Assembly: GCA_016879935.1 (NCBI GenBank)
Contig: JAACJQ010000090.1
Location: 1 to 33,753, forward strand
DNA: 33,753 bases
DNA from: Archangiaceae bacterium
GTDB lineage: Bacteria > Myxococcota > Myxococcia > Myxococcales > Myxococcaceae
Direction: 5' to 3'
Part shown: positions 19,315 to 28,965 of the stretch, in pieces
How positions within the stretch are numbered: the first letter of the stretch is position 1
Layout of the letters: each line of letters begins with the position of its first letter
Made by a program: the position numbers and the translations under genes
Notes under the pieces: generated by a model
What the model was told of the DNA's origin: nothing
Seen by the model: the letters and a program-made list of their open reading frames with translations, nothing else
Database searches by the model: none

Positions 19315-21751
19315 GGTCGAGCAGGTTCGCGAAGAGCCGGTACGCGCCGGGAACGCCCGCAGGCAGCTGACGGAAGAACGAGAGGCCCGTGTAGATGAAG
19401 CGCCCCTTGCCGTGCCGCAGGAAGAGCAGGCTGCCCTTCGAGGGCTTCTCTCCGCGGTCGTTCATCGTGAGCGGCGTCTCGTAGTGCGAGTCCCAGGTGT
19501 TGGCGAAGTACAGCCCGCGCTCCTGCACCCAGCCGCCGAAGTCGTCGTCGCTCAGCGCGTTCGGAGCCTTCAGGAGCACGTGTGCGTCGCGGGTGACGAC
19601 GGCGTCTTCGTCGGTGACGCGGTCTTGCGAGAGCTCGAACGGCAGCGGACCGATGGTGGCCGGCACCGAGCTGAGCCAGTTCTTCGTGTTGTACTGGGCG
19701 ACGAGCGTGCCGCCGTTCTTCACGTACGCCATCAGCCGCTCGTACACGGCCGGCAGCTTCGGGTTCACGTTGTACGCGCGCACACCCACGACGATGGCGT
19801 CGAAGCGCTCCAGGGCCGAGGTGCGCAGCGCTTCGTCGGTGAGCAACGTCACCTCGTAGCCGGCCTGCGTGAGCGCCGCGGGCACGTCGTCACCGGCGCC
19901 GACGATGTAGCCGACGCGCGTGGTCTTCCCTCGACGCAGGTCGACCCGCAGCAGCTTCACCTGCGCCGCCGTCAGCACCGTCTGAATCGGAATGTGCGCG
20001 TACTCGACGCGGGTGAGCGTCTTCGCCGGCGCTCCATCGAGCAGCACCGAGAAGCTCCCCGTCGTCGGAGCCGTCTTGCTCGCGGGCTTCACCTTGAAGG
20101 CGACCTTCGCCTCGGTGGTCTTCTTCTCGAGCGTGTACGGCGCGGCTGCCGGCTCGCAGACGAAGCCAGCGGGAACGTCGAGCTTCACCTCGCCACGCTG
20201 CGCATCGGCGTTCGCCGTGAGCGTCACCTCGACGGTCTTCGCGTTCAGGTCGGTGAAGACGAGCAGCTCGGCGTTCGCGCGGGCGACGACGGGCGGGAGC
20301 ACTTCGATGGGCCGATGACGTTCTCCAACGGTCGGGTCGACCCATCGAAACGTCGCGGGCCGACGCAGAGAGAACGTGTGGCCCGCCGACGAGAGCCGGT
20401 ACTCCACCATGAAGGGAGACGGCAGCTCGGGTGCGCCGATGGGCTGCGTCGAAGCGACGCCCCAGGTGCCCTTCTGCGGCGGCAGGTCGAGGAAATATGG
20501 ACTCGAAAGCGACGCAGCGACGTCGAGCTCCACCGACAGCTTCGCCGGCTTGCCACGCTCGAGCATCGTTCCCGGCGTGAGGGACGTCGCCGCAACGGTC
20601 ACTGCGTCGAGCGTGATGGGTGTTCCCGAACGTTCGAGCGCCATCACGTCGAGCTTCAGCTTCGCGCCCGGCACCACGCTCGTCGTCGCCGCGCTCGCCT
20701 GCACGAAGAGCCCCGCGCAGTTCGCGATGAGGTCGGTGAGCTGGGTCAGCTTGTGCTCCTTCCACGGGTTCGCCGGCATCGCGCGCAACGCCTCGAGCGC
20801 CAGCAGCAGCGTGGGAACCGACTTCGCCGGAGCGTCGACCTTGAACTCGGCCGTCGCCTTCTCGACGAGCTGCGCGAACTTCTCGGTGCCGGCGACGCGC
20901 TTCCAGCTCGTGTCGAGCCCTTCGAAGAGCGACTTCTTCGCGGGGTCTCCATCGAGTGGAGCGAAGTACTCGACGCTGCCTTCGTGCACGGGCGCGGCGC
21001 CGAAGCCCTGGCTCTTGTGCATGCTGCGGCTGGTCGCGGCGAGCTCTCCGTACGAGAAGCCGAGCAGCGGGCTGAACTGGCTCGAGTCCCACGTGACCGA
21101 ACCTTCGGGCGGCTTGAAGGCCGGGTCGGGCGCCCACGCGTTCCACACGATGCGCTTCGCCTGCCAGACCTGAACGCGGTCGAGCTGCTCGGGGTGAAAC
21201 GTCGGATCCGCCGCGGCGCGAAACGCGAGCACCGCCAACTTCGCCGAGGCCGTGTGGTGGCCGTGCGTGGTGCCCGGCTCGGGAGAGAAGCGCGTGATGA
21301 TGAGGTCGGGCCGCAGCGAACGAATGACGAACACCGCGTCGGCCAGCACGTCGTCGGGAATCGAGTCGGGCTTGCCCGCCCAGATGGCCATCGTCTCGTC
21401 GACGCTCTTCGAGTACCCGAAATCGCGCGCGCGCGTGAAGTACTGCTCCGCGCCGTCGACGCGGCGTGCGGCGAGCAGTTCCTGGGTGCGAATGACGCCG
21501 AGCAGCGGGCCGAGCTCGGAGCCGATGAGGTTCTGGCCGCCTTCGCCGCGCGTGAGCGAGAGGTACGCCGTGCGGAACTTCATCTCGTTCGCGAGCGAGC
21601 CGAGCAGCCGCGTGTTCTCGTCGTCTGGGTGCGCGGCGACGTAGAGCGCGGTGCCGACGACGGAGAGTCCCTTCAGGTCGTTGAGCAGCTGCGCACCATC
21701 GCGAGCCTGGGCCGGGGCAGAGAGGAGCAGGGAAATCATCAGGGCCTTCAT
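19304..21751 (-). CDS. Large exported PIG-L/LmbE-type deacetylase with C-terminal beta and amidotransferase-like domains
   Basis: 815 residues from ATG 21751, with GAGG five bases upstream. MKALMISLLLSAPAQA is a signal peptide. The PIG-L/LmbE domain (about 30-280) has the zinc motif AAHPDDEN (His 41, Asp 44) and the second motif THGHHTAS (about 163-170), so the active site looks intact. A middle beta-rich region (about 350-590) precedes a C-terminal domain with a class I amidotransferase-like fold (about 605-815; RVGYIVGAGDDVPAALTQAG, FDAIVVGVRAYN). PIG-L enzymes remove acetyl groups from GlcNAc conjugates; BshB does this in bacillithiol synthesis but is only about 230 residues and cytoplasmic. 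This one follows bshA with an ATGA overlap. It may process an exported GlcNAc compound, or replace BshB if the signal is not cleaved. Confidence 0.88.
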   Translation of the reverse strand: MKALMISLLLSAPAQARDGAQLLNDLKGLSVVGTALYVAAHPDDENTRLLGSLANEMKFRTAYLSLTRGEGGQNLIGSELGPLLGVIRTQELLAARRVDGAEQYFTRARDFGYSKSVDETMAIWAGKPDSIPDDVLADAVFVIRSLRPDLIITRFSPEPGTTHGHHTASAKLAVLAFRAAADPTFHPEQLDRVQVWQAKRIVWNAWAPDPAFKPPEGSVTWDSSQFSPLLGFSYGELAATSRSMHKSQGFGAAPVHEGSVEYFAPLDGDPAKKSLFEGLDTSWKRVAGTEKFAQLVEKATAEFKVDAPAKSVPTLLLALEALRAMPANPWKEHKLTQLTDLIANCAGLFVQASAATTSVVPGAKLKLDVMALERSGTPITLDAVTVAATSLTPGTMLERGKPAKLSVELDVAASLSSPYFLDLPPQKGTWGVASTQPIGAPELPSPFMVEYRLSSAGHTFSLRRPATFRWVDPTVGERHRPIEVLPPVVARANAELLVFTDLNAKTVEVTLTANADAQRGEVKLDVPAGFVCEPAAAPYTLEKKTTEAKVAFKVKPASKTAPTTGSFSVLLDGAPAKTLTRVEYAHIPIQTVLTAAQVKLLRVDLRRGKTTRVGYIVGAGDDVPAALTQAGYEVTLLTDEALRTSALERFDAIVVGVRAYNVNPKLPAVYERLMAYVKNGGTLVAQYNTKNWLSSVPATIGPLPFELSQDRVTDEDAVVTRDAHVLLKAPNALSDDDFGGWVQERGLYFANTWDSHYETPLTMNDRGEKPSKGSLLFLRHGKGRFIYTGLSFFRQLPAGVPGAYRLFANLLDHGS

Positions 21752-22818
21752 GGAGTCCTCGTGAGGCGGCGGTAGTGCGCCTCCCACTGGTCGACGATGG
21801 GCGACAGCTGGAAGCGGGAGACGGCGGCGTCGCGCGCGGCCTTCGACATGGTTCGGTGCAGCGGGGCGTCGTCGAGCAGCGTTCGTGCGCTCGCGGCCAT
21901 CGCCGCGACGTCTCCGACGGAGTGCAGAAAGCCGTTCACGCCATGGGTGACGACCTCGGGCAGCCCACCCACGTTCGACGCGATGACGGGAACGCCGCAG
22001 CTCATCGCTTCGAGCGCCGCCAGCCCGAAGCTCTCGAGCTCACTCGGCAGGAGGAACACCGCGCCGCGCTGGAGGTGTGGAGCGACGTCACGACACTCGC
22101 CGAGCAGCGTCACGCCACGCACGCCGTCGCGACGAATGACGTTCTCGACGTTCACGCGTTCGGGTCCATCGCCGAGCAGAAGCAGTTCGTCTGCACCGCT
22201 GCGCGCATGAATCGCGAGCACGTCTTCGATGCGCTTCACCGAGCGGAAGTTCGAGTTGTGCACGAGCACGCGGCCAGCCGGAGCACCCGGCGTGAAGCGC
22301 GTCGTGTCGACGAAGTTCGAGAGCACCTGCACGTCGACGTCGGCGAGCGAGGTCGCCTTCAGGGCGAGGAACTTCGATGGTGCGGTGACGAGCTGGGCGC
22401 GCCGAAGCGCGTGTCGAACCATCGGCGCGTAGGCCTGCTCAGCGCCGAGCGTCAGCACGTCGGTTCCATGCACCGTCACCACGAGCGCGGGAGCCTTCCG
22501 GCCCAGCACCTCGCCCGCGAGCGCCGCGCTGACCGCGAAGGGCAGGGCGTAGTGCACGTGCACCACGTCGAGCTCGAGTCGCGTCAATGTGGAAGCCAGC
22601 GCGAGGCCGAGATCGCCCGAGGGCAACACGGGATGCGTCGGAACGCCGACCTCGTGCACCGTCACGTTCTTCGCGTCGCCTAGCCGAGGCGGTCGCGCAG
22701 CAGCGATGAAGTGAACGTCGTGTCCGCGTTCGGCGAGCGAGAGCCCGAGCTCCGTCGCGATGACGCCGCTGCCGCCGTACGACGCGTGACACACGATGCC
22801 GATGCGAAGCCCGCTCAT
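21748..22818 (-). CDS. bshA: N-acetyl-alpha-D-glucosaminyl L-malate synthase
   Basis: 356 residues, family GT4. It joins GlcNAc from UDP-GlcNAc to L-malate, the first step of bacillithiol synthesis. The N-terminus LRIGIVCHASYGGSGVIATE, with VHVHYALPFAVSAAL (about 86-100) and LVVTVHGTDVLTLG (112-125), follows Bacillus BshA closely. LVHNSNFRSVKRIEDVLAIH (185-204), LLLLGDGPE (212-220) and the EX7E motif in ESFGLAALEAMSCGVPVIAS (Glu 262 and 270) form the UDP-sugar site. The ATG overlaps the bshC stop and the stop overlaps the PIG-L start, both as ATGA. Cytoplasmic. Confidence 0.95.
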   Translation of the reverse strand: MSGLRIGIVCHASYGGSGVIATELGLSLAERGHDVHFIAAARPPRLGDAKNVTVHEVGVPTHPVLPSGDLGLALASTLTRLELDVVHVHYALPFAVSAALAGEVLGRKAPALVVTVHGTDVLTLGAEQAYAPMVRHALRRAQLVTAPSKFLALKATSLADVDVQVLSNFVDTTRFTPGAPAGRVLVHNSNFRSVKRIEDVLAIHARSGADELLLLGDGPERVNVENVIRRDGVRGVTLLGECRDVAPHLQRGAVFLLPSELESFGLAALEAMSCGVPVIASNVGGLPEVVTHGVNGFLHSVGDVAAMAASARTLLDDAPLHRTMSKAARDAAVSRFQLSPIVDQWEAHYRRLTRTP

Positions 22819-24302
22819 GTGAACTCCGGCGAGAGCGTGATGACCTCGTGGCCGAACGGAACGACGCGCGACTCGACGAGCTTCACGAACGCCTCGATGC
22901 CGAACGACGCGAAGAACCCAGCGGCGCCGAGCACCCGCTCCTGCGGCTGACCGTTCGGAAACAGCGCGCGCTGCAGTCGATCGACCCGGCCCGCGAGCAC
23001 CTCGTCTTTCGTGAGCCGCTCCCGGTTCAGCCGGGCCCCCAGCCGATTCGCCGCCCGCGCGATGGTCTTGCGCGTTCGCTCCACCGCGTCGTCGACGCCT
23101 TGCACGCTCGAGAGCACCGGCTCGATGGCTGCGAGCAACTGCTGCTCCACGTCTTCGGTCGTGCCCCTGGGCGCCAGCTTTCGAAGCAGTGTCTCTCTCG
23201 GCACTTCCACTTCCGCGGGCGTGAGCCCCAACGTCTCGAGCAACGCCTTCGGCCGCGCCTCGACCACGCGAAACCGCGCGCGCGGCATCACCATCGGCAT
23301 CGAAAGCCCGAAGTGCGAATAGAGCGGAGCCAGCTGCGCGAAGTAGTTCAGCTCGCCCGGGCCTCCGACGATGGCCGCCGTCGGCAACAACGTGTCTTGA
23401 ATGATGGGCCGCAGCAGCGCCGAGCTGCTCACACAGAGTGGATCCTCCGGCAGCTTCGCCGACGCCTCCGCCCGAAACCGTGCGCCAGCTCGGCCATCGG
23501 GATGAATGAACGTGAGCGCCGAATCACGAACGCGCACCTGCACGTCGAAGCCCGCACGCTCGAGGTCGTCGCTGCGTTGCTGGAGCACTCGCGTGATGAC
23601 GTCACACTCCGCGAGCGCTCGTTCGTGCACGGAACGCGCGACCCTCGCGAGCACCTCGTCACGCGGGTCGAGAATGACGAGCGACGGGAACAGCTCCGAC
23701 AGCACGCCAGCAAACGCGGTCACCCAGGTGGCTTCGGGCCGGTAGTGCCGCGTGAACAGCGCCGAGACCTCGTCTGCGTGCGGCCACCCATCGAGGGCAG
23801 CTCCCAGCGTCGAGAGCGCTTCATCGACCCCCGCGCCCAACTGCACCGACGACATCGACGCGCGCTCGACGTGCGGCGAGGCGAGCGAGAGCTTCGTCAG
23901 CGCTCCGTCTCTGCCGTGCACGACCGTGTGAGCAATCTCGTCGAAGTCGTGGTCTTCACTCTGCAACCAGAAGACAGGCACGCACTCGAGCGCGCGCGCC
24001 GTCACGACCGCCGTGGCTGCTTTGTAGAGGGAATACAGCGGGCCGAGGAACAGCCCGACCTGCTGTCCCGTCACCACGACCGGCGCGCCACCCGCGAGCG
24101 CGTCGAGCGACGTCTCACGCGCTGACGTCAACGGTCGTCGCGCCGCCTGTGCCCTCAGCGCCGAGACGACCTCGGCCTTCACCCCGCGCGCACGGGCCTG
24201 CCGAACGAACTCCGCCCGTCTCGATGGGTGTCGAAACCCGTCATCGAGAAAGCGAAGGGCGCCCGGCTCGGCCTTCAGGAACGCGGGGGAAAAGGCCGAC
24301 AT
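22815..24302 (-). CDS. bshC: Bacillithiol biosynthesis cysteine-adding enzyme
   Basis: 495 residues, slightly under the usual 510-540. BshC adds cysteine to GlcN-malate in the last step of bacillithiol synthesis. Family hallmarks are VVVTGQQVGLFLGPLYSLYK (75-94) in the nucleotide-binding region and VPVFWLQSEDHDFDEIA (108-124). LLRPIIQDTLLPTAAIVGGP and GELNYFAQLAPLYSHFGLSM follow in the centre, then a C-terminal coiled coil (about 390-450) with a terminal FASFGIEAFVKLVESRV. It starts seven bases after the DUF2911 gene and overlaps bshA by four bases, so it belongs to one transcription unit with both. Confidence 0.95.
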   Translation of the reverse strand: MSAFSPAFLKAEPGALRFLDDGFRHPSRRAEFVRQARARGVKAEVVSALRAQAARRPLTSARETSLDALAGGAPVVVTGQQVGLFLGPLYSLYKAATAVVTARALECVPVFWLQSEDHDFDEIAHTVVHGRDGALTKLSLASPHVERASMSSVQLGAGVDEALSTLGAALDGWPHADEVSALFTRHYRPEATWVTAFAGVLSELFPSLVILDPRDEVLARVARSVHERALAECDVITRVLQQRSDDLERAGFDVQVRVRDSALTFIHPDGRAGARFRAEASAKLPEDPLCVSSSALLRPIIQDTLLPTAAIVGGPGELNYFAQLAPLYSHFGLSMPMVMPRARFRVVEARPKALLETLGLTPAEVEVPRETLLRKLAPRGTTEDVEQQLLAAIEPVLSSVQGVDDAVERTRKTIARAANRLGARLNRERLTKDEVLAGRVDRLQRALFPNGQPQERVLGAAGFFASFGIEAFVKLVESRVVPFGHEVITLSPEFT

Positions 24303-25218: not shown

Positions 25219-27777
25219 TCAGAGTGCTGCCATCTGCTCACCACACAGGTGCGCGAGCGCCATGATGGTCCACTGCGGGTTGATGCCGGCGCAGTCGGGG
25301 AACAGCGACCCGTCGCACACGCGCAGGTTGTCCATGCCGCGCACGCGGAAGTCGGCGCCCACGGGGCCAATCGCGTCGTCGGTGCTCATGCCGTTGCCGC
25401 CCTGCGGGTGGCCGGTGCCGACGACGAGGTCACGCAGGTCTTTCAGCTGCGTCTCGTACGCCTTCAGCTCGTTCGCGTCGGAGACGACGATGCCGTGCGC
25501 CGTCGGCATGATGAGCTCGTTGATGGGCTCGGGGTTGCGGTCGTCCATCAGCGCGCGGGCAATCACGCCGTGGCCGTGGTGGAGGCGCGAGAGGTCGTCG
25601 AGGCCGATGGGCAGCTGCACCTTGCCGTCGGCGTCGACGGTGCCCGAGGCGAGCGTGGCGACGAGCGGCGCGACCACCGCGAAGTTGCGGTAGTTCTGCA
25701 TGCGCGCCTGGTGCACCTCGAGGTACCCGGGCAGCACCATCGCGTGCGCGGCCGGCGGGTTGAACCACGACTCGATGACGAAGCGCGGCCCCGGCTCGTT
25801 CGGCCAGAAGAAGTGCGAAATCTGAAGCGAGCCGTACGACTGAATCGGCTCCTGCAAAAACGCGAAGACGGGCGCGCCGATGTTCGCCGAGAGCCGCTTG
25901 CCGATGAGCCGGTGCGCGAGGCCCGAGCGCAGCAACGCCGCCGACGACTGAATCGGGCCGCACGAGACGACGTACTCCTTCGCCTTCACCGAGAGCGTCT
26001 GCGAGCCGTCGCCCACCGCCACCTGCGCGCCCGTCACCTTCGTGCCCGACAGCTCGAAGCGGTGCAGCCGCGCGAGCTCGATGACGTCGAGGTTGCCCGT
26101 CTCGAGCCCTTCTTTGAGGTGCACCTGCAGGCTGTTGCGCTTGGCCTCGTATGAGCAGCCGAGGTTGCAGTACCCGCAGCCGCGGCAGGTCGAGCGCTTG
26201 ATGTTCACGTTGCATTCGTAGAGCCCCGGCACGTTCGGCAGCGCGGGCGGGTGCTTCGCCACCGGGCCCCACGCCTGCTCGAGGTACGAGAGGGCCGGGT
26301 TCAACCGGGCTCCAGGCGCGAGCGCTTCACTCGCGGGAATGATGCCGAGCTCGGCTGCCACCGCGTCGTACGCGCGGTTGAGCTCGCTCTCGCTCACGGG
26401 GAAGCCGACGTTCGCCCAGCGCTGGAAGATGGGCTTCGGCAAGCGGAAGCACACCGCGTTGTTGTGCAAGCCACCACCACCGACGGCGCGCGCCTGCAGC
26501 ACGGTGATGTTGCGGTACTTCGCGGGGTCGACCTTCGGGCGGCCGACGTCGAGCGCGTTCTGCAGCCCGCCCATCGCGTACGTGCGTGAGAGGCCGTCGA
26601 TTTCGCCGCTCGAGAACGAGGGTTCGTGGTGGTACCGGCCCGCCTCGAGCAGACACACCTTCTTGCCCGCCTTGGCGAGGCGGTTGGCGAGCAGGCTGCC
26701 CGCGACGCCCGAGCCCGCGATGAGCACGTCGTACTGGCCCACCGGCTTCTGCTTGATGGCGAGCTTGAGGGAGCCGGGGCCAGGCGACGTCGGCGCGCGC
26801 ACGTACCCGATGGAGGTGTCGACGCTCGGGCACGAGTAGTACGTGGCCATCAACACCACGTGCAGCGAGTGCGCCGCAGAGCGCAGGTCGCGCTCGAGCA
26901 CCGTGTTCACCGGGTTGTTCAGCACGTCGCGAACCACCTGCCGCAGCTTCGTCGCGTCGAGCTGACCGAGCGCCTGACCGACGAGCGTGTCGACCGCCGC
27001 GCCGACGACGTTCTGCAGCAGCGCGCCCAGGTCGATGGAGGAGTTGGCGAGGTACTTCTCGAGCTGCTCGATGACCTCGGCCGGCGTCGCCACCTTCTGC
27101 CCGGGAATGTAGACGTCGAGCAGCAGGCTCACGAGCAGCTGCTGGTGCCAGAGAATCGAGCGGCTGCCGGAGAAGAAGAGCGGCACCACCGAGTACACCT
27201 CGGAGAGCCGCGCGTTCATGAAGCCCAGGAAGTCCTGCTGGGCGAGCTTCGTCTCGAACGGCGACGCCGAGCCCGGGAACTCGAGCGAGCCGAGCTGGTC
27301 CATCAGGTCGGGCAGCGCGACGTGCAGCTCTCCATCGGCGACGACTTCTCCGCGCGAGAGGTCGCTCACCGTCACGCTCAGCAGGGTCGAGAGGTCGCCG
27401 AGCGCGTCGAGCGCCTGCACGGCTCCGTCAGCGCGCAGCTGCTTGAAGCCCTTGAGCAGGTACGGCGCTCCGCCCGGGCCGGTGAACTCGATGTTGAACT
27501 CGAACTCCTGCTCGCGCCGGCTCGGCGTCGTGGGCCGGAACATCTCGATGGTGCCGCCGGTGATGCTGAAGCGCCGCGGAAACAACCCGTCTTTCCACTG
27601 CACCGTTCCGCCCGAGACCTGACAGACGTGGGCCGGGCCCGCGATGAAGGCGTTGAGCGAGCCGATGACCTGCGTCGTCGAGAACGCGAACGACTCGACC
27701 GAGCCATTGGAGCGGCGTGTCACCTGGCCGCGCATCGCTTCGAGAACACGAACTCCGACGGCGTTCGAGATGGGCAT
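25219..27777 (-). CDS. GMC-type FAD oxidoreductase fused to a large N-terminal domain
   Basis: 852 residues from ATG 27777. The first 340 residues form a separate region with no signal peptide; it has beta sequence near the start (CQVSGGTVQWKDGLFPRRFS) and a helical middle. I do not recognise it. The rest is a GMC oxidoreductase: FAD motif YDVLIAGSGVAGSLLANRLA (about 347-366), the ARAVGGGGLHNNAVC loop, GHPQGGNGMSTDDAIG and a C-terminal CAGINPQWTIMALAH. A cluster STCRGCGYCNLGCSYEAKRN near residue 530 (C-x2-C-x2-C-x3-C) is ferredoxin-like and also occurs in some alcohol- and sterol-oxidising GMC proteins. The substrate is probably a hydrophobic alcohol or sterol, by analogy only. It stops 78 bases before the DUF2911 gene. 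Confidence 0.88.
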   Translation of the reverse strand: MPISNAVGVRVLEAMRGQVTRRSNGSVESFAFSTTQVIGSLNAFIAGPAHVCQVSGGTVQWKDGLFPRRFSITGGTIEMFRPTTPSRREQEFEFNIEFTGPGGAPYLLKGFKQLRADGAVQALDALGDLSTLLSVTVSDLSRGEVVADGELHVALPDLMDQLGSLEFPGSASPFETKLAQQDFLGFMNARLSEVYSVVPLFFSGSRSILWHQQLLVSLLLDVYIPGQKVATPAEVIEQLEKYLANSSIDLGALLQNVVGAAVDTLVGQALGQLDATKLRQVVRDVLNNPVNTVLERDLRSAAHSLHVVLMATYYSCPSVDTSIGYVRAPTSPGPGSLKLAIKQKPVGQYDVLIAGSGVAGSLLANRLAKAGKKVCLLEAGRYHHEPSFSSGEIDGLSRTYAMGGLQNALDVGRPKVDPAKYRNITVLQARAVGGGGLHNNAVCFRLPKPIFQRWANVGFPVSESELNRAYDAVAAELGIIPASEALAPGARLNPALSYLEQAWGPVAKHPPALPNVPGLYECNVNIKRSTCRGCGYCNLGCSYEAKRNSLQVHLKEGLETGNLDVIELARLHRFELSGTKVTGAQVAVGDGSQTLSVKAKEYVVSCGPIQSSAALLRSGLAHRLIGKRLSANIGAPVFAFLQEPIQSYGSLQISHFFWPNEPGPRFVIESWFNPPAAHAMVLPGYLEVHQARMQNYRNFAVVAPLVATLASGTVDADGKVQLPIGLDDLSRLHHGHGVIARALMDDRNPEPINELIMPTAHGIVVSDANELKAYETQLKDLRDLVVGTGHPQGGNGMSTDDAIGPVGADFRVRGMDNLRVCDGSLFPDCAGINPQWTIMALAHLCGEQMAAL

Positions 27778-27873
27778 GTGTGTTTTCCCCCGCGTGAAGA
27801 GGCGCGAACCGTACCGCGCGGCGTGCCCACCCGAACGGAGGAAACGGCAGACGAAGGTCAGGTCAGTGCAGAA

Positions 27874-27898
27874 GTGCCTCGGCGTCTTCGAGGGGCAC
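27874..27898 (+). other. Hairpin upstream of the tRNA-like unit
   Basis: GTGCCTCG and CGAGGGGCAC enclose GCGTCTT. Eight pairs form if two G of the right arm bulge out. It lies 34 bases before the tRNA-like 3' half on the same strand and could be part of a larger structured RNA. Read on the minus strand it would be in the leader of the GMC oxidoreductase gene. Confidence 0.4.
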
Positions 27899-27932
27899 GA
27901 CACGCCCGGCCGAGCAGGCCCCACACGCACTT

Positions 27933-28010
27933 CGGATGCCGCAGGTTCGACTCCTGCCGACCCGACTCATCGGGTCGTAGCTCAGACGGTAGAGCACCGC
28001 CTTGAAACGG
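27933..28010 (+). tRNA. Circularly permuted tRNA-like unit (3' half, CTCAT, 5' half), anticodon GAA
   Basis: 27933-27965 reads as a tRNA 3' half: CGG (end of anticodon stem), ATGCC (variable loop), GCAGG-TTCGACT-CCTGC (T arm), CGACCCG (acceptor strand) and A73. After CTCAT, 27971-28010 is a 5' half: CGGGTCG (acceptor), TA, GCTC-AGACGGTA-GAGC (D arm), A, CCGCC (anticodon stem), TTGAAAC (loop with U33 and GAA), GG. Joining 28010 to 27933 gives a 73-base tRNA with every stem perfect (7, 4, 5 and 5 pairs), with no base missing or duplicated. CCA is not encoded. The acceptor and T arm resemble tRNA-Lys, while the anticodon would read Phe codons. No second copy of either half lies nearby. It may be a functional permuted tRNA, a tRNA-derived RNA, or an inserted circle of a tandem tRNA unit. 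Confidence 0.5.
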
Positions 28011-28012
28011 AA

Positions 28013-28028
28013 GAGAACGCGAGTTCTC
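28013..28028 (+). other. Stem-loop with GCGA (GNRA) tetraloop next to the tRNA-like 5' half
   Basis: GAGAAC and GTTCTC form six perfect pairs closed by GCGA, two bases after the tRNA-like unit. GNRA loops are a mark of structured RNA, so the transcript of this region may extend beyond the tRNA halves. It could also act as a 3' end stabiliser. No U-run follows (CCTGTGG), so it is not a standard terminator. Confidence 0.45.
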
Positions 28029-28149
28029 CCTGTGGCTTTCTCACTCGGGCGTGTCGTGCATTCCCACCTTCAGGAATCGGAGTCTCACCGTTGCGCAGGG
28101 CGCTGATTGCGCCGGGCGCTACATCGAACGGCCACTCCCGGAGGTCGCG

Positions 28150-28350
28150 ATGCCGCTGATGACGAAGAAGGTGAAGCTTCACGATGGAATCGTCGGCGCG
28201 CTGGTGCTCGCGAGCGTCGGGCTTGGGCAGGCGTTCGACCCGCGGTGGTACGCGCTCACGGGCCTCGTGGCGGTCGTGATGATCAGCAGCGCCTTCACCG
28301 GCTTCTGCCCGGTGCACTTCCTCGTGAGCAAAGTCGTCAAAGAGCCCTGA
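28150..28350 (+). CDS. DUF2892 small membrane protein
   Basis: 66 residues from ATG 28150, with CGGAGG about five bases upstream. A further in-frame start upstream would run back into the tRNA-like region and adds non-hydrophobic sequence, so it is rejected. The protein has two hydrophobic helices (about 12-28 and 34-50), and ALTGLVAVVMISSAFTGFCP is the family signature, as in the membrane tail of YgaP. Members are inner-membrane proteins of unclear role, sometimes fused to rhodanese domains or encoded near sulfur metabolism genes. Confidence 0.85.
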   Translation: MPLMTKKVKLHDGIVGALVLASVGLGQAFDPRWYALTGLVAVVMISSAFTGFCPVHFLVSKVVKEP

Positions 28351-28398
28351 GTCTGCTGGACGAGGTGGCAGTGCTGGGGTCAGGTGCGCCAAGGGCCG

Positions 28399-28965
28399 AT
28401 GGCAGCGAGTCGTTCGATGCGGTTGGTGCTTCTCCTTCTCTTGTGTGGCTGTGGGCGCTCGGGGCTGCTCGACGAGCTCGGTCTGGCTCCATTCGACGCA
28501 GGCACGAGCCGTGACGCGGGCGTCGATGCCGGTGTCGGTGTCGACGCGGGACTTCGTCTCGATGCCGGCGTGCGAGCGGGCCCGAGCTTCGTGTTCAAGA
28601 GCTCGAACACCTGCCCCGGCACGGGCTCCGAGATGGACCTGATTCCCCGCCCGGGTGAACGGCTCGTGCTGGTGAAGACGACGGTGCAGACCGAGTGCAG
28701 CGGCGCGGGCGGAGACTGGCTCATCGGCACGCTGCTCGACAGCACCAGCATCGCCTTCGGAGCGCACGCCTGTTTCTTCGTGCCGTCACGCCTGCAGGAC
28801 ACGTCGTGGTTCGGCCTCGCGCGCATCGACCCGAACGGACCGCTGCTCATGACGCAGACCGGGTGGTGCATTCTGCCCGTGACGACGAACGCGAAGGTGC
28901 TCGCGTGGGGGCTGTACCCGAGCGAGCAAGACGCCGTCGCCGCACGTGCTGCGCTGACGCCCTGA
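28399..28965 (+). CDS. DAG-rich lipoprotein, function unknown
   Basis: 188 residues from ATG 28399, with AAGGG just upstream; ATG 28417 is an alternative that keeps the lipobox. The signal MRLVLLLLLCGC leads to a lipidated Cys. A DAG linker (about 38-62: FDAGTSRDAGVDAGVG and VDAGLRLDAG) precedes a beta-rich domain of about 120 residues. That domain has Cys pairs (NTCPG, QTECSG, HACFF, GWCIL) and a repeated theme of W-L/F-G segments. It resembles no family I can name. It stops 14 bases before the DUF3592 gene, so the two may be co-transcribed. Confidence 0.75.
   Translation: MAASRSMRLVLLLLLCGCGRSGLLDELGLAPFDAGTSRDAGVDAGVGVDAGLRLDAGVRAGPSFVFKSSNTCPGTGSEMDLIPRPGERLVLVKTTVQTECSGAGGDWLIGTLLDSTSIAFGAHACFFVPSRLQDTSWFGLARIDPNGPLLMTQTGWCILPVTTNAKVLAWGLYPSEQDAVAARAALTP

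Follow-up and report, generated by a model that had tools for sequence, protein, structure and literature searches.

A probable Y RNA of the Myxococcaceae with a permuted tRNA mimic and a hypervariable anticodon triplet

Why should a bacterial genome carry a tRNA cloverleaf in which the 3' part precedes the 5' part? The question is raised by positions 27933–28010 of the window analysed here, the whole 33,753-nucleotide (nt) stretch of contig JAACJQ010000090.1 (contig C441 below) from the 9.5-Mb draft genome of an Archangiaceae bacterium (G000). The unit reads, in order, T arm and acceptor 3' strand, five bases (CTCAT), acceptor 5' strand, D arm and the 5' part of an anticodon arm, exactly as given in an original prediction made without database searches, the coordinates and cloverleaf of which could be reproduced. 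Joining 27971–28010 to 27933–27965 gives a 73-mer that ARAGORN calls tRNA-Phe(gaa); the linear window returned nothing from ARAGORN, and nothing from Rfam at gathering thresholds. The unit is intergenic, with a GMC oxidoreductase gene (25219–27777, minus strand) on one side and a short gene for a YgaP-like membrane protein (28150–28350) on the other. The best explanation overall, and in our view a highly likely one, is that it forms part of a bacterial Y RNA with a presumed Ro60-type partner protein, a permuted tRNA mimic and an anticodon arm.

The unit lies inside a larger structured RNA, as the original prediction had suggested in passing: a 165-nt element with a conserved enclosing stem (27895–28059, plus strand, as are all of its features). 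The 5' strand of the terminal stem P1, GCACGACACGCCCG (27895–27908), pairs perfectly with its 3' strand, CGGGCGTGTCGTGC (28046–28059), over 14 bp; in 25 sequences the inner 6 bp are paired without exception (100%) and include 3 double-changed pairs. Beyond a small internal loop lies P2, where GAGCAGGCC (27912–27920) pairs with 28034–28042; this helix covaries in relatives, with 92.9% of cells paired in the 25 sequences. Its 3' strand and the conserved internal-loop ACT (motif CACTCGG), together GGCTTTCTC plus ACT at 28034–28045, include GGC.T and ACTCGG columns that are invariant in the same set, as is ACA.GC in the linker that leads from this Ro-type stem to the tRNA-like domain, CCACACGCAC (27921–27930). 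A plain upstream GGCC...GGCC hairpin, also proposed earlier, was rejected because its strand covaries with the 3' end and is really the 5' strand of the helix with 28034–28042. The proposed GNRA stem-loop is real (GAGAAC, loop GCGA, GTTCTC; 28013–28028), being present in the minimum-free-energy fold, and a hairpin occurs at the same place at three other loci (L052, L053 and L054). The whole element folds with z = -5.1, the predicted fold holding the terminal stem, the T, acceptor and D arms and the GNRA hairpin, and covariance model R1, which counts the window among its own 25 sequences, matches 27903–28051 with 114.5 bits (E 5.5e-20). A scan for promoters and terminators found nothing.

In relatives recovered by a blastn-type search, the same frame encloses different tRNA bodies. 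The stems, which the original prediction had proposed to compare between related genomes, are conserved with compensatory changes. In an alignment of 25 members, the structure of which was written from the window sequence and so favours the pairing percentage but not the compensatory changes, the enclosing stem and the T, acceptor and D helices are paired in 97% of cells, and there are 104 double-sided pair changes versus 30 in shuffles; with partners slid by one base, pairing was at most 53%. The T arm (GCAGG, TTCGACT, CCTGC; 27941–27957) is 100% paired with 2 double-changed pairs. All seven pairs between the acceptor 5' strand CGGGTCG (27971–27977) and the 3' strand CGACCCG (27958–27964, followed by the discriminator A at 27965) show double-sided changes in relatives, and the D arm (GCTC, AGACGGTA, GAGC; 27980–27995) is paired in 93% of cells. 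The CTCAT loop that caps the acceptor stem (27966–27970) encodes no CCA and varies in both length and sequence.

Searched with the covariance model, 78 of 96 Myxococcaceae genomes, single-contig assemblies included, have the element, at 1–9 copies each. It is rare elsewhere, with matches in 7 of 99 other genomes of the phylum at E 1e-5, one of them strong. The genome studied here holds four clear copies, on C441 (the window), C62, C159 and C120. At four loci (L060:1388–1472, L070:1412–1473, L135:3295–3383 and L138:3283–3356) the Ro-type stem is present but the tRNA part is replaced by a short unrelated insert, and some of these copies stand in tandem with one that has the tRNA part. In four genomes of the window's genus that have the GMC gene, no Y RNA match extends from that gene (window 27400–28420 compared), and the copies therefore seem to change place among close relatives.

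What kind of RNA is this? The best Rfam match is YrlA (RF02553), at 27933–27999, with 37.1 bits (E 6.7e-7), a match that includes the T arm, and the model also matches 39 of 99 relatives. YrlA is a bacterial Y RNA, and its structure (PDB 6CU1) superposes on tRNA via a circular permutation (PMC11472068); its stem holds the Ro60-type protein Rsr (PMC8394870). The element has the corresponding parts: ends that pair as a long stem with a conserved internal loop (P1 and P2), T, acceptor and D arms in the same permuted order as in YrlA, and a genome that encodes a Ro60/Rsr-type protein. It differs from YrlA in the sequence of the terminal stem, in being multi-copy with some copies lacking the tRNA part, and in that most members add a full anticodon arm, autonomous or split; the tRNA-like domain of YrlA has none, and the arm is here a variant feature. 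Because the best match is YrlA, the tRNA-like domain is permuted, and a Ro60/Rsr-type gene is linked to the element and co-occurs with it, the element is very probably a bacterial Y RNA akin to YrlA, its divergence being large enough to put it under the Rfam cut-off. As a positive control, a canonical Rsr gene was found beside a 65-bit YrlA, the known arrangement, in a genome of the same order.

In several genera the neighbour of the element encodes a protein of about 587 amino acids in which Pfam sees a vWA domain alone. Its AlphaFold model has a mean predicted local distance difference test score (pLDDT) of 61.5 and a predicted template modelling score (pTM) of 0.46, with residues 1–156 poorly modelled. 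In a Foldseek search of the PDB with this model, the ten best matches are all Ro60, TROVE or Rsr proteins (2e-8 to 1.5e-5) over about 510 columns, and among the VIA-align matches listed only Ro60/Rsr structures extend over both the helical and the vWA part (2nvo: Z 14.1, 345 residues, root-mean-square deviation 8.4). Judged from the model, the associated protein is a divergent Ro60/Rsr, with a TROVE fold followed by a vWA domain. Named relatives found with this protein are nearly all Myxococcaceae (Myxococcus, Corallococcus, Pyxidicoccus, Archangium, Hyalangium and Citreicoccus), and at all 27 of the named-genome loci with the gene the element lies upstream on the same strand, nearly always within 180 nt. 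Presence of element and gene agrees in 57 of 59 genomes (37 with both, 20 with neither, 2 discordant), with a Fisher P of 1.5e-13 that is uncorrected for relatedness. The genome studied here has one such gene (G000:C196:10157–11899), unlinked to the window copy, and its product is 71% identical to a protein whose close homologue gave the model that matches Ro60/Rsr.

What is new here is that a whole anticodon arm is kept in the tRNA mimic of a Y RNA, and in most members. In the RF02553 consensus the D arm runs straight into the stem, with no anticodon arm, and a review of Y RNAs describes D, T and acceptor arms only (PMC8394870); a literature search for a Y RNA with an anticodon, or in Myxococcus, found no relevant paper. 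Of 121 distinct myxobacterial elements, 71 carry an anticodon arm at the canonical tRNA offset. In 65 it is an autonomous hairpin of 5 bp and 7 nt, 53 of these with U33 (2.0 and 0.4 in shuffles); in six others, the window's among them, it is split, five with U33 (0.9 and 0.1 in shuffles), the 3' strand of the anticodon stem being made of two bases from downstream and three from upstream. In the window (27997–28010) CCGCC (27997–28001) is followed at the canonical offset by the loop TTGAAAC (28002–28008), with U33, and by GG (28009–28010), and the stem is completed across the permutation by CGG at 27933–27935 (tRNA positions 41–43), which pairs with CCG at 27997–27999. The same CGG also closes the multiloop as in YrlA, and the homologous link stem covaries in relatives. 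Apart from the triplet, the window's arm equals the stem and loop of the host tRNA-Val(CAC). After rejoining, 64 of the 71 elements were called as tRNAs with the expected anticodon, versus 25 when the arm was shuffled. Two elements (L247:42–185 and L254:51–197) have a Ser/Leu-like D arm and the anticodon TCA, and ARAGORN calls three rejoined TCA elements selenocysteine tRNA (tRNA-SeC).

The triplet at the centre of the arm, GAA in the window, evolves faster than intergenic DNA within an otherwise conserved RNA. Among the 71 arm-bearing elements there are 33 different triplets, including readers of stop codons. For 27 operon-linked elements, mapping onto a tree of the Ro60-like gene next to them gave 9, 10 and 10 changes at positions 34–36 and three at position 33, compared with 1.7 per column over the remainder of the element and 2.75 at four-fold sites. 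Since the four-fold sites are codon-biased, intergenic flanks were compared within Corallococcus, where the triplet has 12 changes against about 1.1 per column of flank (P 0.0015, random triples), a per-site change about 3.5 times that of the flank; positions 37 and 38 are variable there too. One orthologous copy in the window's genus reads TCA, GCA, TGA, TTG and TGA in an arm that is otherwise nearly fixed. In 61 of 71 cases the triplet equals an anticodon in use in the element's own genome, and, like real tRNAs, the elements seldom have A34. That the variation arises by direct copying from host tRNAs was rejected, since only 13 of 71 loops equal a tRNA loop of the same genome. The hypervariable copy in the window's genus adjoins a gene for a PP-loop ATPase resembling TtcA, the tRNA 2-thiocytidine (C32) synthetase (L232:3009–4060, L234 and L235), and C32 is present in all five orthologues of that copy.

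What such an arm would be for can be approached from the structure. The paired 5' and 3' ends would form a stem whose conserved internal loop region is presumably bound by the divergent Ro60/Rsr protein. The other end would be the permuted tRNA mimic, its acceptor stem capped by a short loop and its chain entering and leaving at the anticodon end, so that no cutting or ligation would be necessary. Held by Ro60, the mimic could present an anticodon loop of changing sequence to enzymes that recognise or cleave such loops, anticodon nucleases and toxins among them, and so serve as their bait or decoy; a role of this kind would favour both rapid turnover of the triplet and multiple copies in each genome. 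This function of a Ro60-bound RNA is offered as a tentative proposal, with chances clearly below even. The authors of work on Salmonella have suggested that the tRNA-like domain of YrlA might inhibit an anticodon nuclease, YrlA itself being uncut (PMC7790460); an anticodon that is both genuine and variable would make this family a better fit to that idea than YrlA is.

About as likely as a decoy, and so a serious contender that stops short of being probable, is a Y RNA in which the anticodon arm is purely structural: the centre of the loop would drift while U33 and the purines are kept for loop stability, and the RNA would work as in RYPER, where Ro60 is tethered to an exonuclease. The many elements that have only a YrlA-type link stem, or no scored arm, agree with this, as does the known function of YrlA, which is independent of an anticodon (PMC8394870). 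It accounts poorly for the excess of triplet change over intergenic flank in Corallococcus, for the excess over codon-biased four-fold sites among the operon-linked elements, and for the match of most triplets to anticodons of their own genomes with A34 rare.

Several observations weigh against a Ro60-bound Y RNA acting as an anticodon decoy, some of them bearing on its identity and others on its role. The 37.1 bits of the window fall below the RF02553 gathering score of 69 bits, and the maximum in 99 relatives is 65.9 bits, so that none reaches gathering; window and relatives are therefore classed outside RF02553, as divergent Y RNAs of YrlA type. The model of the Ro60-like protein is of modest confidence, so claims about its fold rest on the top-ranked matches and the extent of the alignment. 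By sequence the protein gives no TROVE match: PDB sequence searches returned vWA domains only, profile comparison with the canonical Rsr of another genome (G065) returned the vWA metal-binding motif only, and a Pfam TROVE search of the window's genome was empty, so that a search by sequence profiles and nothing else would have missed the Ro60 partner. The Ro60-like gene is not adjacent to the element in the window, nor in its genus. The window's arm is weaker than most, with 2 bp closing the loop locally and the other three supplied by the upstream strand, and 50 of the 121 elements have no scored arm, so that a Y RNA of this family need not have one. Relaxed constraint could also explain the high variability of the loop, and no linked anticodon nuclease came to light.

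The original prediction had favoured a permuted tRNA gene. On such a reading the precursor would be closed into a circle and opened within CTCAT, yielding tRNA-Phe in the manner of the algal and archaeal genes. The rejoined 73-mer is indeed a perfect cloverleaf called tRNA-Phe(gaa), and as in the algal and archaeal genes the 3' half lies upstream of the 5' half, the break being here in the anticodon stem. Unlike those genes, the element sits inside a conserved non-tRNA stem, its anticodons track no isotype and there is no sign of processing. The family contains many copies with almost any anticodon, stop-codon readers included, and some members without the tRNA part; it co-occurs with a Ro60 homologue; the acceptor end has C1-G72 and no CCA; and the host already has an ordinary tRNA-Phe(GAA), the unpermuted counterpart that had been proposed as a check. 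A permuted tRNA gene is therefore very improbable. The permuted order itself has stood as a conserved, biological feature, whereas a processed permuted tRNA gene has not. A permuted tRNA fold was already on record for a bacterial RNA, YrlA in 6CU1 (PMC11472068).

Permuted two-piece tmRNA also has a tRNA-like end in which the natural 5' and 3' ends face each other inside the gene. The element differs in having no tmRNA match in Rfam, and a tag reading frame is not expected in so short an RNA. That a circle from a tandem tRNA array or another tRNA fragment was inserted at random, or that the unit is an assembly join, might be entertained because the window copy is not syntenic in the genus and its GMC neighbour occurs elsewhere without the element, but conservation of a multi-copy element, inside its stem and with almost any anticodon, in 78 of 96 family genomes, single-contig assemblies included, rules out an artefact or random insertion and makes either scarcely credible. 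Equally far-fetched is the permuted intron–exon (group I) arrangement giving circular RNA that was suggested by the structured flanks around permuted exons, Rfam having no group I or other intron match at E up to 1 and the enclosing structure being merely a two-part stem of about 23 bp.

The surroundings of the Ro60-like gene invite comparison with the Salmonella RNA-repair operon rsr-yrlBA-rtcBA. In both, Y RNA genes lie beside a Ro60-type gene, here just upstream and on the same strand, and the partners differ: the Ro60-like gene heads a conserved set (L117, L128, L131 and L132) encoding a 337-amino-acid protein to which Pfam assigns nothing, a JAB-like protein, a ThiF/E1-like protein and an 81-amino-acid protein; together they resemble a small conjugation system of the ubiquitin type. 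A second difference is that in several genera two Y RNA copies are separated by a gene for a Pnkp/ApaH-like phosphatase, and a sigma factor gene lies close by. In the genome studied here, genes for a UvrD-type helicase and a DUF2290 protein, both matching PADLOC defence models (L153:7951–10733, on G000:C196), separate the Ro60-like gene from the 339-amino-acid-type gene that normally comes directly after it. Two further features of this genome were recorded. A cluster of low-scoring, odd tRNA genes for a second Phe(GAA), Leu, Ile, Lys and Gly (L028 and L041; G000:C214:34195–35408) is perhaps a phage or mobile tRNA array, and a glycosyltransferase gene adjoining a BshC gene in the window (21748–24302) probably represents bacillithiol synthesis genes.

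In bacteria, as this case indicates, a permuted tRNA-like sequence can turn out to be a Y RNA overlooked by Rfam cut-offs and tRNA finders alike, and the resulting covariance model detects one to nine copies per genome. An anticodon that outpaces neutral-looking DNA in its rate of change marks the anticodon loop as the likely contested surface. The Y RNAs of the Myxococcaceae may, on a reading that we hold possible but less than probable, be a library of anticodon decoys or sensors on a permuted scaffold, maintained in an arms race with the anticodon-cutting toxins and nucleases of rivals, of phages or of the cell itself, and with this family the decoy idea becomes testable in Myxococcus xanthus and Corallococcus, both cultivable predators.
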